Source: Pseudomonas antarctica
GTDB lineage: Bacteria; Pseudomonadota; Gammaproteobacteria; Pseudomonadales; Pseudomonadaceae
Length of the DNA stretch: 64,000 bases
Direction of reading: 5' to 3'
Assembly (NCBI RefSeq): GCF_001647715.1
Contig: NZ_CP015600.1
Location: 3,534,001 to 3,598,000 of the forward strand
Made by a program: the position numbers and the translations under genes. The notes below the pieces were generated by a model. That model was not told the DNA's origin. It saw only the letters and a program-made list of their open reading frames with translations, and searched no databases. Below, piece after piece: positions 52,645 through 59,509 of this stretch (position 1 is its first letter; the number at the start of each line of letters is the position of its first letter).

Positions 52645-52720
52645 TGTTACACCGCTGAGACAGCCTTGACGTGGGGCTGCGCATAGAGGGCCGCGCGGGC
52701 ACTGTCTCAACGGTGAAACA
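52645..52720. promoter_or_regulatory. Paired-dyad enhancer site upstream of fapA
   Basis: TGTTACACCGCTGAGACAG (52645-52663) and CTGTCTCAACGGTGAAACA (52702-52720) form an inverted repeat matching at 17 of 19 positions. Each half is itself a dyad of the form TGTnnCA-N4-TGAGACA, as expected for dimeric activators. It lies 65 bp upstream of the -24/-12 promoter, the usual range for a sigma-54 activator. Confidence 0.6.
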
Positions 52721-52783
52721 CCACAGCCATCACAGGGTCTCGGTTTAATTACAACTCGCTGAATATCAACAACAAATAAAAAG

Positions 52784-52799
52784 CGGCACGCGTTCTGCT
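52784..52799 (+). promoter_or_regulatory. Sigma-54 (-24/-12) promoter of fapABCDEF
   Basis: CGGCACGCGTTCTGCT matches TGGCACGnnnnTTGCw at the key GG and GC with exact spacing; the mismatches are the first base and one base in the -12 box. It lies ~53 bp upstream of the fapA start. Confidence 0.7.
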
Positions 52800-52851
52800 C
52801 TTTCCCTTCCAGCGCTGTTTAGGGTCAGCGCGAAGAATAAGGAACACTGCC

Positions 52852-53307
52852 GTGGACACACATAATCCGAGCTCACTGAGCCTCCTGCTGATCAGCTGTG
52901 TACTGAGTGCCAGCGCAAGCCTTCCGGCTTTGGCGGACGGTGACGGTGTGATTGTGATCCAGCGGCAGGTTCAACCTTATGCAATCGGTCGCTCACGCGG
53001 TAAAGACCCCTACCCCAACACCGTGAATGCCAACCCATCAGCCCAAGTCCTGCACGCTGCCAGCAATGAACTCAGCGACAACGACATCGCGGGTATCAGC
53101 ACTGGCTCAAGCCTGACGCGCAGCATCATGCCCAATGGCGACATTACTGGCCTGAACACATTCGGTAGCAGTACAGGCCTGGGTGCCGGCAGCGCGGCCG
53201 GCCACACCAATGGCGGCGGCATCTCCGGCACGGTCAATGGTGCGATATCCAGCGGTCTCGCCCCCTTGAACAACATCAGTGGCATGGTCGGGGGGGCAAT
53301 GAAATGA
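52852..53307 (+). CDS. fapA: Functional amyloid accessory protein FapA
   Basis: A 151-residue exported protein, first in the fap operon. Signal peptide [20 protein letters not shown], then [20 protein letters not shown] and a Gly/Ser/Asn-rich remainder. FapA is an intrinsically disordered accessory that affects the FapB/FapC balance in the fibre. The start is GTG at 52852 with AAGGA ~9 nt upstream. Its stop overlaps the fapB start, so fapB translation is coupled to it. A -24/-12 promoter and an enhancer-like dyad lie upstream. Confidence 0.9.
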
Positions 53308-53867
53308 ACGGCTCCTGGATGCTCCTTGCGGCGCTCAGTTGCACAGCGGCGATGGCCGACAGCAACAACAACGCAACCATCACGAACTCCGGCAAGCAAT
53401 ACGACGGTGTGGTCTCGACCAACCAGGCAGCCGGCGACCAGCAACAGTTGAGCAACAACCTCGCCATTGCAGTGGGCCACAACGCCCTGGCAAACATTTC
53501 CGTCACACAAAAAATCAGCGGCGCTGCGGCCGACCGCTCCCTGAACGCCAACGCTGCGATCCAGGGCAACTCTTTCAGCAATGGCAACGGTGCACTGAGT
53601 GTCAACCAGTCCGCCGGGGCCCAGAACCAGATGATCAATGCCGTGCGCATCAGCGTGAATGCTGGCCCGCAGAGCATCGACGACAGCGTCATGTCGCAAC
53701 AGACCGTTGCGCTTGCAACCGACTCAGGGTTGACCCCTACCACTGGCAGCCGCCAGGTCGTTACCAGCGACCAGGCCTTCACCGGCAGCCGTGGAGTGGT
53801 TCAGGTCAACCAGAGCGCCGGGGTGGGGAACCGAGTGGCTAACACCCTGAACTTACGACTCAACTGA
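53304..53867 (+). CDS. fapB: Functional amyloid minor subunit FapB
   Basis: A 187-residue exported protein (signal [18 protein letters not shown]) regarded as the nucleator or minor subunit. Three copies of a repeat are visible: [40 protein letters not shown] and [20 protein letters not shown]. The N, Q, A, G-rich composition is typical of amyloid subunits. Its ATG overlaps the fapA stop codon. The mature protein has no Cys. Confidence 0.9.
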
Positions 53868-53934
53868 TGGAGCTGAGTCGATCGCTGGACCGCACCAACA
53901 CTTAACCAACTAATTAGAAGCAAGGAGATACACC

Positions 53935-54630
53935 ATGAAAACTACAATGGCTCTCAAACCACTGGCTTTCGCTCTCGCTGCGCTCATGGCTGTTGCTGCT
54001 CAAGCGGGTCAACCCAACCATCATCCACAGCCAGCGCCTACCACCGCTTCCGCGACCACGCTGGATGGTCAAACCAACCACGGCAACGTGGTCACCAATG
54101 AAAAAACCAAAAACAACGCGTCAGCCAATGATTCCTACAACAACATCAGTGGCGTGGCCAACGGCAACGTGCTGAGCGGCGACAACAACCAAGGCAAAAA
54201 CGATGTGGCCATCGTTTCCGGCGATGCAGACTTCGTGTTCGCCAGTGCCGGCGCCGCACAGTCGAACACCGGCAACAAGGTGCTCAACAGCGCCACTAAA
54301 AACAATGCCTCTCTGAACGACAGCGGCAACCATGCTTCGGGCATCATTCAACTGAACTCCGAAGCAGGCACCTCCAACCAAGGCAGCAGCAGTGTTGCAC
54401 TGGCCTCCGGCAATGGCAGCAGCGGCGCCGCAACCGTCACCGGCGTGCAGGACGTGTCGGGCAACCTGACCCTCAACCTGAGCAGCGGCCACGGCTGGAG
54501 CACCAAACCCGTGGTCAACAATGCCAGCGTGAACAACTCGATGAACTTCAGTTCTGGGATATCGAACTCCAACGTTCTGTCGGGCAGCGGCAACCAAGGT
54601 CAGAACAACGTAGCAGTCACTCGCTTCTGA
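53935..54630 (+). CDS. fapC: Functional amyloid major subunit FapC
   Basis: A 231-residue amyloid subunit that forms the extracellular biofilm fibre. After the signal peptide (ALAALMAVAAQA) come three imperfect repeats: KNNASANDSYNNISG...GDNNQGKNDVAIV, KNNASLNDSGNHASG...TSNQGSSSVALA and NNASVNNSMNFSSG...GSGNQGQNNVAV. Two linkers separate them; the second is longer (~35 residues). The AAGGAG ribosome site is optimal, and an intrinsic terminator directly follows the stop codon, both favouring high FapC yield relative to downstream genes. Confidence 0.95.
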   Translation: MKTTMALKPLAFALAALMAVAAQAGQPNHHPQPAPTTASATTLDGQTNHGNVVTNEKTKNNASANDSYNNISGVANGNVLSGDNNQGKNDVAIVSGDADFVFASAGAAQSNTGNKVLNSATKNNASLNDSGNHASGIIQLNSEAGTSNQGSSSVALASGNGSSGAATVTGVQDVSGNLTLNLSSGHGWSTKPVVNNASVNNSMNFSSGISNSNVLSGSGNQGQNNVAVTRF

Positions 54631-54638
54631 TCCAGATC

Positions 54639-54665
54639 GGGCCCTGGCAACAGGGCCCTTTTTAT
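54639..54665 (+). terminator. Intra-operon intrinsic terminator after fapC
   Basis: GGGCCCTG-GCAA-CAGGGCCC perfect 8-bp stem with a GNRA-type loop, followed by TTTTTATT. It lies between the fapC stop and the fapD start, on the coding strand. Confidence 0.85.
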
Positions 54666-54691
54666 TCCAGCGTCCAACAGGTCATACGATC

Positions 54692-55369
54692 ATGCGCCTC
54701 GGAGCCCTCCTTCTGCTGCTAGCACTCACCGGCCCGACCTGGGCAGCGCAAATGGCAGTGGTCATGCCCAATGGCGCGGTGGTCTACAAGAAAGTCGAGA
54801 GCATCCGTGAACGCAAGTTCGCCAACCTGGTGGAACAGAAAACCGATTTCAGCTGTGGCGCCGCCGCACTGGCGACCATCCTGCGCCAAGCCTATTGGAT
54901 GGATGTGGATGAAGACCACGTCATCAAGGGCATGCTGGTCAACGCCGACCAGAATCTGGTGCGCACCCAGGGTTTCTCCATGCTCGACATGAAGCGCTAC
55001 CTGGAAAGCATCCATATGCGCGCCAAGGGCTACCGGATTACACCTGAGGTACTCATCACCGTAAAAGTACCGGTCGTGGTGTTGTTGGACATTCGCGGCT
55101 ACAAGCACTTCGTGGTGTTGCAGCGAGCCGACAAAGACTGGGCCTATATCGGCGACCCCGTGCTGGGCAACAAGCGCTACGCCAAGGACGATTTCGTCAA
55201 GGGTTGGAATGGCATCGTATTCGCCGTCATCGGCGAGGGTTATGACAAGACCAACGCCCTGCTGACCCCGCCCACCCCGCTGACCGCCAGGAGCCAACTG
55301 AACGGGTTCAGCCCGGTACGCGACAGTGAACTGATGGACTTCGGTTTTATCCAGAGCGACTTCTTTTAG
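54692..55369 (+). CDS. fapD: FapD, C39-family cysteine peptidase
   Basis: A 225-residue exported C39-like peptidase of the fap system. The catalytic triad is visible: C55 in TDFSCGAAALATIL, H139 in RGYKHFVVL and D155 in AYIGDPVLG. The signal peptide is LLLLLALTGPTWAA. FapD is thought to process Fap proteins in the periplasm during export. It follows the terminator after fapC, so its level should depend on readthrough. Confidence 0.94.
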   Translation: MRLGALLLLLALTGPTWAAQMAVVMPNGAVVYKKVESIRERKFANLVEQKTDFSCGAAALATILRQAYWMDVDEDHVIKGMLVNADQNLVRTQGFSMLDMKRYLESIHMRAKGYRITPEVLITVKVPVVVLLDIRGYKHFVVLQRADKDWAYIGDPVLGNKRYAKDDFVKGWNGIVFAVIGEGYDKTNALLTPPTPLTARSQLNGFSPVRDSELMDFGFIQSDFF

Positions 55370-55406
55370 AGGCGCAATAAGGAGCAGGACGCTCCAGGAG
55401 CAAACG

Positions 55407-56156
55407 ATGAACACTCTCCGTTGGCTGACGGTCATGTGCCTGGCAGCCACTGCACCTGCTTATGCTTCCTCGGCGTTCAAGCCGATCGAACTCAAGGACT
55501 CGGAAATGGCCGAGCTGCGCGGACGCTATGTGATGCCGGGACGGATTATCAGTTTTGGTATCGTCATGAGCAGCACCTGGACCAACGCCGCCGGTGCAAC
55601 CGTTACTGGCAGCGCCAATATGCAAGTCAACGCGTCCACCGTCACCCCTCAGTTTTATGTGCAAGTCACCGGCAATGATGGCAACGGCATCGTCAAGCAA
55701 CCTCAAGGCACCGGCACGGTAATCGGAGGCTCCGGCCTCGGAACGGGACAGGGCGTGACGCAAAGCGTACGCGCAGCAGGCGACGGCAACACCGCCAGCA
55801 ACGGCGTGGACATCAACGTCACCCAAAACGGTTTGGCCCCCGCCAACTACGTACAGTCAGGCCAAGCGCTGATGGCAGGCCAGCCCATCAGCGGTGGCAC
55901 CGCTGCAGGGCAAGTAACGGTAACGGCGAATAACGGCGGGCTGCAAATGGCACTTCAGGCCAATAACAACCAGGGCAATGTGGTGCAGCAAATTGGCGGT
56001 GGCAACGTCCTGCAAGGCACGGTTATTCAGGGCAACAGCAACTTTGTAAACAATATGACCCAACTCAACGTGGTGCTGGGCAACAACGGTTTAAACAACA
56101 TCAACCAGAACCTTAACCTCGATCAACTCAAAGGCCTCCGCCCTTCCGGTTATTGA
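55407..56156 (+). CDS. fapE: Fap accessory subunit FapE
   Basis: A 249-residue exported protein (signal LTVMCLAATAPAYA). The middle is Gly/Asn-rich; the C-terminal half has Asn/Gln-rich strands (NNQGNVVQQIGGGNVLQGTV, NNMTQLNVVLGNNGLNNINQ) reminiscent of the amyloid repeats. FapE is a minor fibre component and extracellular chaperone-like member of the operon. It begins 37 nt after fapD and precedes fapF by ~50 nt. Confidence 0.9.
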   Translation: MNTLRWLTVMCLAATAPAYASSAFKPIELKDSEMAELRGRYVMPGRIISFGIVMSSTWTNAAGATVTGSANMQVNASTVTPQFYVQVTGNDGNGIVKQPQGTGTVIGGSGLGTGQGVTQSVRAAGDGNTASNGVDINVTQNGLAPANYVQSGQALMAGQPISGGTAAGQVTVTANNGGLQMALQANNNQGNVVQQIGGGNVLQGTVIQGNSNFVNNMTQLNVVLGNNGLNNINQNLNLDQLKGLRPSGY

Positions 56157-56205
56157 ACTACGCTGAGCCACGGCACTTACGCATTAGAAAGGGACGGCTT
56201 ATTTC

Positions 56206-57516
56206 ATGCATCGATCGATATCGTTACGTACCGTGATTTGTTTGAGTACGCTATTGCCGGCATCCATGCTGTATGCCGCGCCGGACGCCGACATCGAAAC
56301 CTTGAAGCAGCAACTTTTAGAGCTCAAGCAACGCTATGAAGTGCAGCAAAAAGCACTGGCCGTGCTGGAGCAACGTGTACGACAAGTAGAAGACCAACCT
56401 GCAACGCCCGCCCCTAAACGCTTGGCAAAATCTCCGGCCGACTTTCAGAAAGGCGGCACTACCGTCGCAGGTCATACGCCTGGAGTGGGCGCAGCTGCGG
56501 CGTCGGGTGGCGCGGGCGGCGGCAGTTCCTACGGGCAAAGCCTCAAGGACGATTCGGCCCCGGCACAAAGTGTCAGCAACCTCTATAACGAGGCCAGCGG
56601 CTTTTTCGGCAACGGCAAATTCAGCTTTGAAACCGGCGTCACCTATGCCCGCTACGACGCCCGGCAGTTATCCCTCAACGGCTTTTTGGCGCTGGACTCG
56701 ATCTTCCTCGGGAATATCAACCTGGACCGAATCAAATCCGACAGTTGGACGCTGGACCTGACCGGGCGCTACAACCTGGACAACCGCTGGCAGTTCGACC
56801 TGAACGTGCCGGTGGTTTACCGCGAATCGACGTATCAGTCGGGAGGTGTCAACGGCGACGCCAACGCAATGTCGGAAGCCTCCGTCACTCGAAACCCAAC
56901 CATCGGTGACGTCAACTTTGGTGTCGCCTACAAATTCCTTGATGAGACTGCCAACCTGCCGGACGCCGTGGTATCGGTGCGCGTCAAGGCCCCCACTGGC
57001 GAGGAGCCCTATGGCATCAAGCTGATAGAGCAAGCCAATAACAATAACCTTGCCGTGCCGGAAAGCCTGCCGACGGGTAACGGTGTGTGGTCGGTGACGC
57101 CAGGCATTTCCCTGGTGAAAACCTTCGATCCGGCGGTGCTGTTCGGTTCGCTGTCGTATACCCATAACTTCGAGGAGTCGTTCGGCGATATCAGCCCCAA
57201 CGTCAATCAGAAAGTCCCCGGTAAAATCAGCCTGGGCGACAGCTTTCAACTGGGCGTAGGGGTAGCCTTCGCGCTTAACGAGAAAATGAGCATGTCGTTT
57301 TCCGTGTCGGACCTGGTGCAGCGCAAAAGCAAGATCAAGCAGACCGGTCAGGACTGGCAATCGGTGGTTTCCAGCGACGCCAACGCTGGTTATTTCAACG
57401 TGGGCATGACCATTGCCGCTTCGGAAAACCTCACCATCGTACCGAACCTGTCAATCGGCATGACGGATGATGCACCGGACTTCACGTTCAGCTTGAAATT
57501 CCCGTACTACTTTTAA
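56206..57516 (+). CDS. fapF: FapF, outer-membrane amyloid export pore
   Basis: A 436-residue outer-membrane beta-barrel that exports Fap subunits. Signal peptide to ~residue 24, a coiled-coil segment ([20 protein letters not shown], then [11 protein letters not shown]) that forms the trimeric periplasmic plug, a Gly/Ala/Ser-rich linker ([16 protein letters not shown]) and a C-terminal barrel ending in Phe (SLKFPYYF). This matches the FapF architecture. It is the last gene of the operon, with a strong terminator after it. Confidence 0.94.
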
Positions 57517-57527
57517 AGCACGCAAGG

Positions 57528-57565
57528 AAAAGCCCCGCAACGATAAGGGTCGTTGCGGGGCTTTT
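57528..57565. terminator. Bidirectional terminator between fapF and the sigma-54 activator gene
   Basis: AAAAGCCCCGCAACGA / TCGTTGCGGGGCTTTT is a perfect 16-bp stem with a short loop. A- and T-runs on both sides suit termination of the two convergent transcripts. Confidence 0.93.
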
Positions 57566-57578
57566 CGGTTTACCCGCC

Positions 57579-58904
57579 CTAGCGGATCTGGTGTTTGTGC
57601 AGCAACCGGTAGAACGTCGGCCGGGACACGCCCAGCATGCGGGCCGCGACGCTCAGGTTGTCGCTGTGCCGGTTGAGCACATCACACAACGCCTGACGTT
57701 CGGCGCGGTGCTTATAATCTTCCAGTGTAGCCATCGGCGGCACGATTGCTTGTTCGTCCTGGAGTCCCAGATCAACGGCTTCGATCTGGCGCCCTTCGGC
57801 CAGCACCAGGCCACGGCGCACACGGTTGGCCAGCTCGCGCACATTGCCCGGCCAAGGGTGTTGCCCCATCGCGACGAGGGCCTCCTCGCTGAAACTGCGG
57901 GCTCGACGCCCGGTTTCCTGACTGTAGAAGCGCGAGAAGTGATTGGCCAGCATGGCCACGTCGCCATGCCGCTCACGCAGGGGCGCAGTCACCACCTGCA
58001 GAACGTTGAGCCGGTAATACAAGTCTTCTCGAAACGTGCCCTTCTCGACCGCCGCTTCCAGATCAACGTGAGTGGCTGCCAACACCCGCACATCCACCGC
58101 AATGGGCTGGCTGCCGCCAACGCGCTCGATCTGTTTCTCCTGGAGAAAGCGCAGCAGATTGGCTTGCAACTCCATCGGCAAATCACCGATTTCATCGAGA
58201 AACAGCGTGCCGCCGTGGGCCGCCTCAATGCGCCCGACCTTACGCTGGTGAGCACCGGTGAACGCACCCTTTTCATGGCCGAACAGTTCGGACTGGATAA
58301 GGTGCTCGGGAATCGCGCCGCAGTTGATTGCGACAAACGGCTTGGCATGGCGCTGGGATTGACGATGCAGGGTCTTGGCCACCAACTCTTTGCCGGTGCC
58401 GCTGTCCCCCCGAATCAACACGGGAGACTCCGTTGGCGCAAGTTTGGCCAGTAATTTGCGCAACTCGCGGATGGGTCGGCTGTCACCCAGCAACTCGTGT
58501 TCCTGCGCCTCAATCAGCGCGTGGCCTTTGCCCCGCAGGCGCGCCATGCCGAACGCGCGCCCGAGGGTGACCTGCACGCGTGCAACATCAAACGGCAAGG
58601 TGTGGAAGTCGAAAAACCACTCACAGACGAAATCACCGACATTTTGCAGGCGCAAAACATCCTGGCTGAGTACCGCAATCCACTCGGTGCCGCTGCGGCT
58701 GATCAGCTCCTTGACCGCTTCGGGGCGCTCGAGGTGAAAGGGCTGTAATCGCAACAGCCCCACATCGCACGACCGGTCGCCGACGGCGCCCAATGCACAG
58801 TTGTCCACCTCCCACCCGGCAGTGCGCAGGCCGGGCAATAGCCCGTGACAGTCATCGCAGGGGTCAACCACCAGCAGGCGTCGCTGAACAGGTGTAACAA
58901 CCAT
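57579..58904 (-). CDS. VpsR-like sigma-54-dependent activator
   Basis: A 441-residue enhancer-binding protein. The N-terminal ~130 residues are a receiver-like domain without a classical phospho-Asp pocket, similar to Vibrio VpsR ([23 protein letters not shown]...RAFGMARL). The AAA+ domain has Walker A GDSGTGKE (166-173) and an intact GAFTGA loop (213-218) for sigma-54 contact. The C-terminal Fis-type helix-turn-helix ([19 protein letters not shown]) binds DNA. It faces fapF across a shared terminator and is the probable regulator of fap. AAGGA precedes the ATG. Confidence 0.9.
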
Positions 58905-59248: not shown

Positions 59249-59509
59249 ATGAACGCCCCGCTCCGCATCAACGAAGCTCTTTTGATCGCAGACCGTGCTT
59301 TCCAGCCCTTTCAGTGCGTGGCCTGGCACGATGGCAATGGCGCTCTCAGCCTGAGCGTCATCGACCGTACCAATACCCGTATCGGCAGCAAACAACTGAC
59401 GTCGAGCACGTATAGCGACCCGGCGCAATTGGAAGATTTGTTGTTGCAGGCCCGAGCCGAACTCGACAAAAACGGCCATCAGTTAAAGTCGTGGGCAATG
59501 CCGAAGTAA
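59249..59509 (+). CDS. Small conserved hypothetical protein
   Basis: An 86-residue protein (MNAPLRINEALLIADRAFQP, then LSLSVIDRTNTRIGSKQLTS). No export signal. The ATG at 59249 follows GAGAGAAG; an earlier frame start at 59147 has no ribosome site and an unlikely composition. It looks like a short single-domain cytoplasmic protein conserved in Pseudomonas. No function is known to me. Confidence 0.75.
   Translation: MNAPLRINEALLIADRAFQPFQCVAWHDGNGALSLSVIDRTNTRIGSKQLTSSTYSDPAQLEDLLLQARAELDKNGHQLKSWAMPK

Follow-up and report, generated by a model that had tools for sequence, protein, structure and literature searches.

The locus examined here raises the question of how the genes for a functional amyloid are switched on in Pseudomonas, and of what becomes of their activator once those genes have been lost. 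It lies in a 64,000-nucleotide stretch of the Pseudomonas antarctica genome (the window; contig NZ_CP015600.1, positions 3,534,001 to 3,598,000), which holds a complete fapABCDEF cluster at 52852-57516 on the forward strand, with FapA to FapF in order and all six above their NCBIfam cut-offs. Convergent with fapF is brfA (57579..58904, minus strand; 1326 bp, 441 residues), the gene of an activator. We consider it very likely that the window carries a BrfA-sigma-54-fap switch, in which BrfA would bind paired sites upstream of fapA and the sigma-54-contacting loop of BrfA would decay after fap loss. We also lean, with less assurance, towards a further step: within one genus, BrfA would repeatedly have ceased to be a sigma-54 activator on fap loss and become a DNA-binding regulator that responds to cyclic diguanylate (c-di-GMP) and acts independently of sigma-54, its L1 and L2 loops decaying while purifying selection maintains the sensor and the DNA-binding domain, thus replaying the step taken by VpsR and leaving BrfA with a second role in species such as P. 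viridiflava ICMP 19473 and P. cichorii MAFF 302096.

The BrfA-RpoN-fap circuit has already been published, and the window circuit by itself is a confirmation of it. For P. fluorescens PF07, the report (PMC9207406) describes brfA (D7M10_RS14495, a 1326-bp open reading frame) as the reverse gene adjoining fapA-F; deletion of rpoN or brfA lowered fap expression and impaired mature biofilms, the brfA deletion lowered fapA and fapC expression, mapping by 5' rapid amplification of cDNA ends showed that a -24/-12 element precedes the fapA start, and fapF expression did not follow that of fapA-E. A 2026 paper states that BrfA senses c-di-GMP directly and regulates fapA directly (PMC13101488). By its place, orientation and 1326-bp length, which match PF07, the window gene convergent with fapF is brfA. 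The two circuits share gene order, orientation, reading-frame length, a sigma-54 fapA promoter and an RpoN-dependent Fis-family activator, but PF07 is a separate sequence record and its likeness to the window was judged by arrangement and length, not by sequence identity.

Upstream of fapA, a sequence-only reading of this stretch had proposed a near-consensus -24/-12 promoter and a 19-bp inverted repeat whose halves are dyads resembling paired activator sites, and both features are borne out. The promoter, GGCACGCGTTCTGC (52785..52798, plus strand; predicted start near 52810), has its GG and GC spaced 10 nt apart and lies 53 bp upstream of the fapA GTG at 52852. The arms of the repeat (52645-52663 and 52702-52720) are 19 nt long, 89% complementary and 38 nt apart, and each is itself a dyad, TGTTACA-N4-TGAGACA in the distal one (52645..52662, centred about -156.5 from the predicted start) and TGTCTCA-N4-TGAAACA in the proximal one (52703..52720, centred about -98.5), which reads TGTTTCA-N4-TGAGACA on the minus strand. 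The arrangement exceeds chance: the 18-mer dyad occurs twice in the window at up to three mismatches, with a mean of 0.04 in shuffled sequence and none of 100 shuffles reaching two. A degenerate 18-mer spanning both halves matches the whole genome at these two places only when up to two mismatches are allowed, and at three mismatches its matches are near the control level (35 in total versus 26). As far as sequence features go, fapA with its -24/-12 promoter and upstream sites is the kind of target that sigma-54 enhancer-binding proteins require. The 9-mer TGTTACACC, whose recurrence in brfA the same reading had allowed to be chance, has two copies in the window (mean by chance 0.23, with two reached in 3 of 100 shuffles), the second lying within the brfA coding region. 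We attribute it to chance and reject it as a sign of brfA autoregulation; a dyad with up to two mismatches was found upstream of brfA in none of 30 brfA loci, over about 1.5 kb searched, and downstream of brfA in four of them.

The product of brfA has three Pfam domains: VpsR (PF20161) at residues 6-115 (58560-58889, minus strand; 34.7 bits, cut-off 23.7), Sigma54_activat, and the Fis-type helix-turn-helix (HTH) domain HTH_8, encoded near 57582-57707 on the same strand. Its AAA+ domain carries Walker A, Walker B, GAFTGA and arginine-finger motifs, as expected of a sigma-54 enhancer-binding protein, and matches PDB 7v2b (VpsR). Taken on their own, the first 138 residues match the N-domain of VpsR (PDB 7y19, E 5e-4). 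The GAFTGA loop is intact (residues 213-218; 58251-58268, minus strand), so that the disruption which marks VpsR proper is absent; the earlier description of an enhancer-binding protein with GAFTGA and a VpsR-like N-domain stands. BrfA is probably not phosphorylated, because in the alignment its segment CDVGLLRL places an arginine at the aspartate position of an ordinary receiver (L002).

The paired dyad proved to be a general feature of fapA upstream regions. From the 109 FapF-bearing genomes among 149 drawn from the genus (FapF called at E <= 1e-20, BrfA at >=60% identity), 105 fapA-upstream loci were fetched, leaving out the window and three genomes with a fragmented fapF (G016, G035, G076); one locus (L139) was cut off, and with the window's own the usable upstream regions number 105. 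The dyad TGTNTCA-N4-TGANACA, at up to two mismatches, is present in 102 of the 105, against none for the reversed pattern and 0 to 3 in five mononucleotide shuffles. With GG and GC required to be exact and up to three mismatches allowed, a -24/-12 match is likewise found in 102 of 105. Measured from the predicted start, a proximal dyad with up to three mismatches is centred between -100.5 and -96.5 in 103 of 105 regions (97 at up to two mismatches), with no match for the reversed pattern; the misses are L103, in which another -24/-12 match was chosen, and L161, which has no promoter match under the rule used. A second dyad (up to three mismatches) lies at -195 to -140 in 97 of 105 and a third at -260 to -248 in 25, and the exact double dyad occurs in 17 of the 149 genomes (control 0). 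Among 27 fapA loci from 30 FapF-bearing genomes new in a draw of 119 genomes from the family, a hand tally places the proximal dyad at about -99 in 24 (misses L254, L264 and L269). The other dyads stand at preferred distances from the proximal dyad, with clusters at 47, 58, 69-70, 80-82 and 153-155 bp, the window having 58; strict helical phasing was rejected, since the first four clusters are 11-12 bp apart rather than 10.5. In nine genomes brfA lies on one contig with fapF but more than 10 kb from it (G003, G024, G051, G057, G081, G091, G104, G110, G145), and all nine retain the proximal dyad; the circuit is self-contained in the window, as first described, but not in every genome. Collectively, these results identify the dyads as conserved enhancer elements of fapA, at a fixed distance from the promoter; that they are BrfA's sites is suggested by their conservation and placement.

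The presence of the amyloid system also follows that of the regulator. All 109 FapF-bearing genomes of the genus draw carry BrfA, which reaches the identity threshold in 123 of the 149; none of the 26 BrfA-less genomes has FapF, including two with partial or 45% matches (G043, G123), and 14 genomes have BrfA without FapF. Fisher's exact test gives 3e-19, a value that ignores kinship and so overstates the evidence. In the family draw, all 33 FapF genomes carry BrfA and 16 others have BrfA without FapF (called at E <= 1e-95). The proposal that promoter, dyads and activator form one fap-controlling circuit agrees with these comparative data and with the PF07 mutants (PMC9207406).

The genomes that retain BrfA without FapF point to what keeps the activator intact. 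We compared 127 BrfA sequences, 106 from FapF-bearing genomes, 19 from FapF-less ones (all 14 of the genus draw and 5 of the 16 of the family draw) and two second copies; BrfA of G052, G125 and G076 stood outside the comparison. No loop is damaged in the FapF-bearing set, which has 104 GAFTGA and two GSFTGA. In the FapF-less set 17 of 19 loops are altered or deleted and two are intact (G137, G171). Six of the 17 lost loops retain GAFxG(A/S) with the threonine replaced by glutamate, asparagine or aspartate, and in the others the damage goes further (EGANGG, ETVDAS, GAAADA, gaps and so on). Identity of the FapF-less rows to the window protein falls at two places, the L1 region at residues 203-220 and a stretch around residues 246-267, the latter of which we take to be L2 from its position relative to known enhancer-binding proteins. 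HTH identity is 0.85 in these rows against 0.87 in their FapF-bearing counterparts, and in some loop-lost rows the degeneration extends to Walker B and the arginine finger. Beside the intact brfA of G137 lies a stretch encoding a 22-residue fapF tail (L178, 4836-4901; 86% identical, E 5e-7) in a genome with no FapF match, apparently the scar of a recent fap deletion.

A test aware of kinship was made on a BrfA tree of 61 rows, with the loop columns removed, the FapF-bearing rows thinned at 90% identity and all others retained; this BrfA tree, rather than a species tree, served for counting changes of state. There are six such changes in the loop and eight in FapF presence, and FapF absence accompanies each of the six independent loop contrasts (sign test, p 0.031). 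We regard this test as the fair one and the evidence from it as modest. One genome (G230) holds both a fap-linked, 68% identical BrfA and a 52-54% identical copy in which the GAFTGA region is deleted (L277, L287); because it holds both forms, the diverged g12/g4 clade (G222, G214, G151; 48-55% identical) is probably a paralog line. Ratios of nonsynonymous to synonymous change (pN/pS) were compared between five loop-lost and eight fap-bearing pairs of near relatives, hand-picked from the trees. They are 0.308 in the loop-lost versus 0.054 in the fap-bearing pairs for the loops, 0.022 versus 0.093 for the HTH, 0.063 versus 0.121 for the lid, 0.171 versus 0.199 for the N-domain and 0.099 versus 0.096 for the rest of AAA+. 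The DNA-binding domain of loop-lost BrfA is thus still subject to purifying selection. A named set, the best 80 of 589 loci on contigs of one genome per species, overlapping the other draws and with fap scored as a FapF or FapD match within 7 kb, gave 66 intact loops with fap nearby, nine lost loops without fap and five intact loops without fap in the flank, four of these five ending at a contig edge on the fap side. The lost-loop records of these 80 include the titles P. viridiflava ICMP 19473, P. cichorii MAFF 302096, P. californiensis and P. graminis; the intact, fap-bearing ones include three titled P. viridiflava (L367, L411, L421) and one P. syringae (L423), the titles being unchecked.

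We propose that BrfA, reported to sense c-di-GMP in the case of the PF07 protein, would bind the TGTNTCA-N4-TGANACA dyads upstream of fapA. Through its GAFTGA loop the AAA+ ring would remodel the sigma-54 polymerase at the -24/-12 promoter and so switch on at least fapA-E of the Fap amyloid genes. In a lineage that loses fap, the sigma-54 task that had maintained the L1 and L2 loops of BrfA would be gone and these loops would decay, while the sensor and the DNA-binding domain would live on in a VpsR-like regulator that controls other genes without sigma-54. That the survival of the loop goes with fap fits fapA as the target requiring the sigma-54 activity of BrfA; where the loop has gone, the sensor and HTH are still there, which implies that BrfA, like VpsR, has another function that does not depend on sigma-54.

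Several observations weigh against this interpretation. The loop was compared in 106 of the 139 FapF-bearing genomes of both draws; fap absence was judged from FapF alone; and two FapF-less genomes, G137 and G171, keep an intact loop. In the six GAFxG(A/S) loops, the replacement of threonine is only presumed to abolish sigma-54 contact. Without the probable paralog clade there are five loop changes and 5 of 5 pairs, with p rising to 0.0625. Among the FapF-bearing genomes, the brfA match of G052 (C1:3145028-3146227) has an internal TAG stop, and G125 and G076 give partial matches. Finally, in an amrZ fleQ double mutant of P. ogarae F113, raised c-di-GMP did not raise fapB (PMC9279365), so BrfA may not be the sole c-di-GMP input. 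The last result is also what favours FleQ, the other c-di-GMP-binding enhancer-binding protein of Pseudomonas, as the direct activator of fapA, with BrfA acting indirectly, given that fleQ was missing in that mutant. We nevertheless hold this to be very unlikely indeed: a FleQ-like box is no commoner in the 105 upstream regions than its reversed control (1 versus 4 at up to one mismatch, 19 versus 27 at up to two), FapF presence tracks BrfA and its loop, and the PF07 brfA deletion lowers fapA and fapC expression (PMC9207406).

It is similarly improbable that the dyads serve a different regulator and that BrfA binds elsewhere. Exact single dyads do occur in BrfA-less genomes, and one of these precedes a gene for an autotransporter protease, much like one in G020; the fapA dyads, however, stand at a fixed distance from a sigma-54 promoter in nearly all FapF-bearing loci fetched, all from BrfA-bearing genomes, and exact dyads in FapF-less genomes are commoner where BrfA is present (16 in 14 genomes, seven of which carry them, versus 3 in 14 without BrfA; p 0.004, a generous test, as some sites are common to related genomes). 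The reversed pattern gave one forward match across the 29 genomes searched. As to the fate of BrfA after fap loss, a decaying gene rather than a working regulator would account for the degenerate loops and for the Walker B and arginine-finger changes in some rows, and we rate this as rather unlikely, given that the loop-lost matches contain no stops, that the HTH has the low pN/pS given above and that the sensor domain is as constrained in loop-lost as in fap-bearing pairs.

As to other targets of BrfA, we inspected all 16 exact dyads of the 14 genomes with BrfA but not FapF, two further ones of the window's own genome and two of the three BrfA-less ones, that of G078 being left out. Four have a -24/-12-like match downstream (L201, L207 and L212, with three mismatches, at -240, -236 and -60; L208, with two, at -140), the predicted start of L208 falling inside a gene, and none of these pairs looks convincing as a promoter arrangement. 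The neighbours are mixed, comprising a two-partner secretion gene, an ATP-binding cassette exporter with a C39 domain, autotransporters and one gene without family, and no conserved BrfA regulon outside fap emerged among the 16 exact dyads. Dyads of the same type lie 60-85 bp upstream of autotransporter-like genes (L208 near 5000, L212 near 4998, L209 and L215 near 5000), whose products have a PAP2-domain passenger (G020, with a similar frame in G066) or a subtilase passenger (G020, with a similar frame in the BrfA-less G026); these may be sites of another regulator that recognizes a similar sequence. The same exact dyad, on opposite strands, is found directly upstream of a gene for a similar 390-residue protein without Pfam match (L198 5006 and L206 4999) in G085 and G068, two genomes that are related, lack FapF and have a BrfA without the loop; this gene is a candidate new BrfA target. 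In the window's own genome, the further exact dyads are at C1:3865992 (L214 5003) and C1:2139413 (L213 5004), one upstream of a gene for a 973-residue winged-helix/NTPase regulator and the other within a predicted frame; no sigma-54 promoter match was found within 400 bp of either.

Several known systems resemble BrfA in part. VpsR of Vibrio cholerae shares with it the N-terminal PF20161 domain and the AAA+ domain, but its GAFTGA is disrupted by a deletion, as noted in 2011, and it probably works without sigma-54 (PMC3162934), whereas the window BrfA has an intact loop and a sigma-54 promoter as target. BerB of Burkholderia cenocepacia is an enhancer-binding protein that binds c-di-GMP and needs RpoN for a biofilm pathway (PMC5552954), in this resembling BrfA (c-di-GMP in BrfA being the PF07 report); unlike BrfA, it is without an N-terminal input domain and works via berA and exopolysaccharide. 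The best NCBIfam match over the BrfA AAA+ and HTH regions is the PEP-CTERM response regulator TIGR02915, at 419.6 bits, below its cut-off of 502.6 and beginning at residue 98, so that the N-domain is uncovered. In a class-wide draw, an AAA+ match was obtained for 26 of the 29 best PF20161 loci fetched; of these 26, 15 have exact GAFTGA, seven one-residue variants and four a lost loop. The suggestion that BrfA represents a sigma-54-competent branch therefore has its polarity reversed: among the sampled PF20161 proteins the competent form is common, and VpsR-like loss is the exception, recurring inside Pseudomonas. New relative to the literature found are the loop-lost BrfA relatives and the fapA enhancer array; dyad array, fixed spacing and loop decay in fap-less species were not found in the open-licence literature searched, a scope outside which lies a 2024 BrfA paper (10.1016/j.micres.2024.127864), with possible overlap with its mapped binding sites.

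The fap genes on the plus strand are fapA, with a GTG start (52852..53307; NF058556, 235 bits, cut-off 100), fapB (53304..53867; NF058557, 266.6, cut-off 190), fapC (53935..54630; NF058558, 222.5, cut-off 195), fapD, a C39 peptidase (54692..55369; NF058616, 420.4, cut-off 330), fapE (55407..56156; NF058559, 345.6, cut-off 250) and fapF, the fibril amyloid transporter (56206..57516; NF058560, 757.1, cut-off 700). Between the convergent fapF and brfA, a perfect 17-bp inverted repeat with a 6-nt loop (57527..57566) is probably their shared terminator. Directly upstream of fapA lies a gene for a FecR-type protein (PF04773, PF16220; 51538-52533, plus strand), with such a match upstream of fapA in 21 of the 105 fetched loci (L060-L079 and L081). 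Divergent from brfA is a gene for an 86-residue protein (59249-59509, plus strand) without Pfam or NCBIfam match. It is divergent from brfA in 44 of 44 loci examined, with 61-100% identity, lying within about 410 bp in 43 and 5 kb off in one; as a partner of BrfA it was rejected, being found in 147 of the 149 genus genomes, including 24 of the 26 BrfA-less ones, and it is a conserved unknown neighbour of brfA.

For the genus, these observations amount to a repeated natural removal of fap, after which the activator tends to drop exactly its sigma-54-contacting loops. The loss of the loop after that of fap offers independent evidence for fapA as the sigma-54 target by which the BrfA loops are kept intact. 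It would also provide parallel cases of the passage from a sigma-54 activator to a VpsR-type regulator, making that question directly testable. If the conversion is true, a second BrfA regulon is predicted in such species, and the fapA enhancer is now located precisely enough for mutation.

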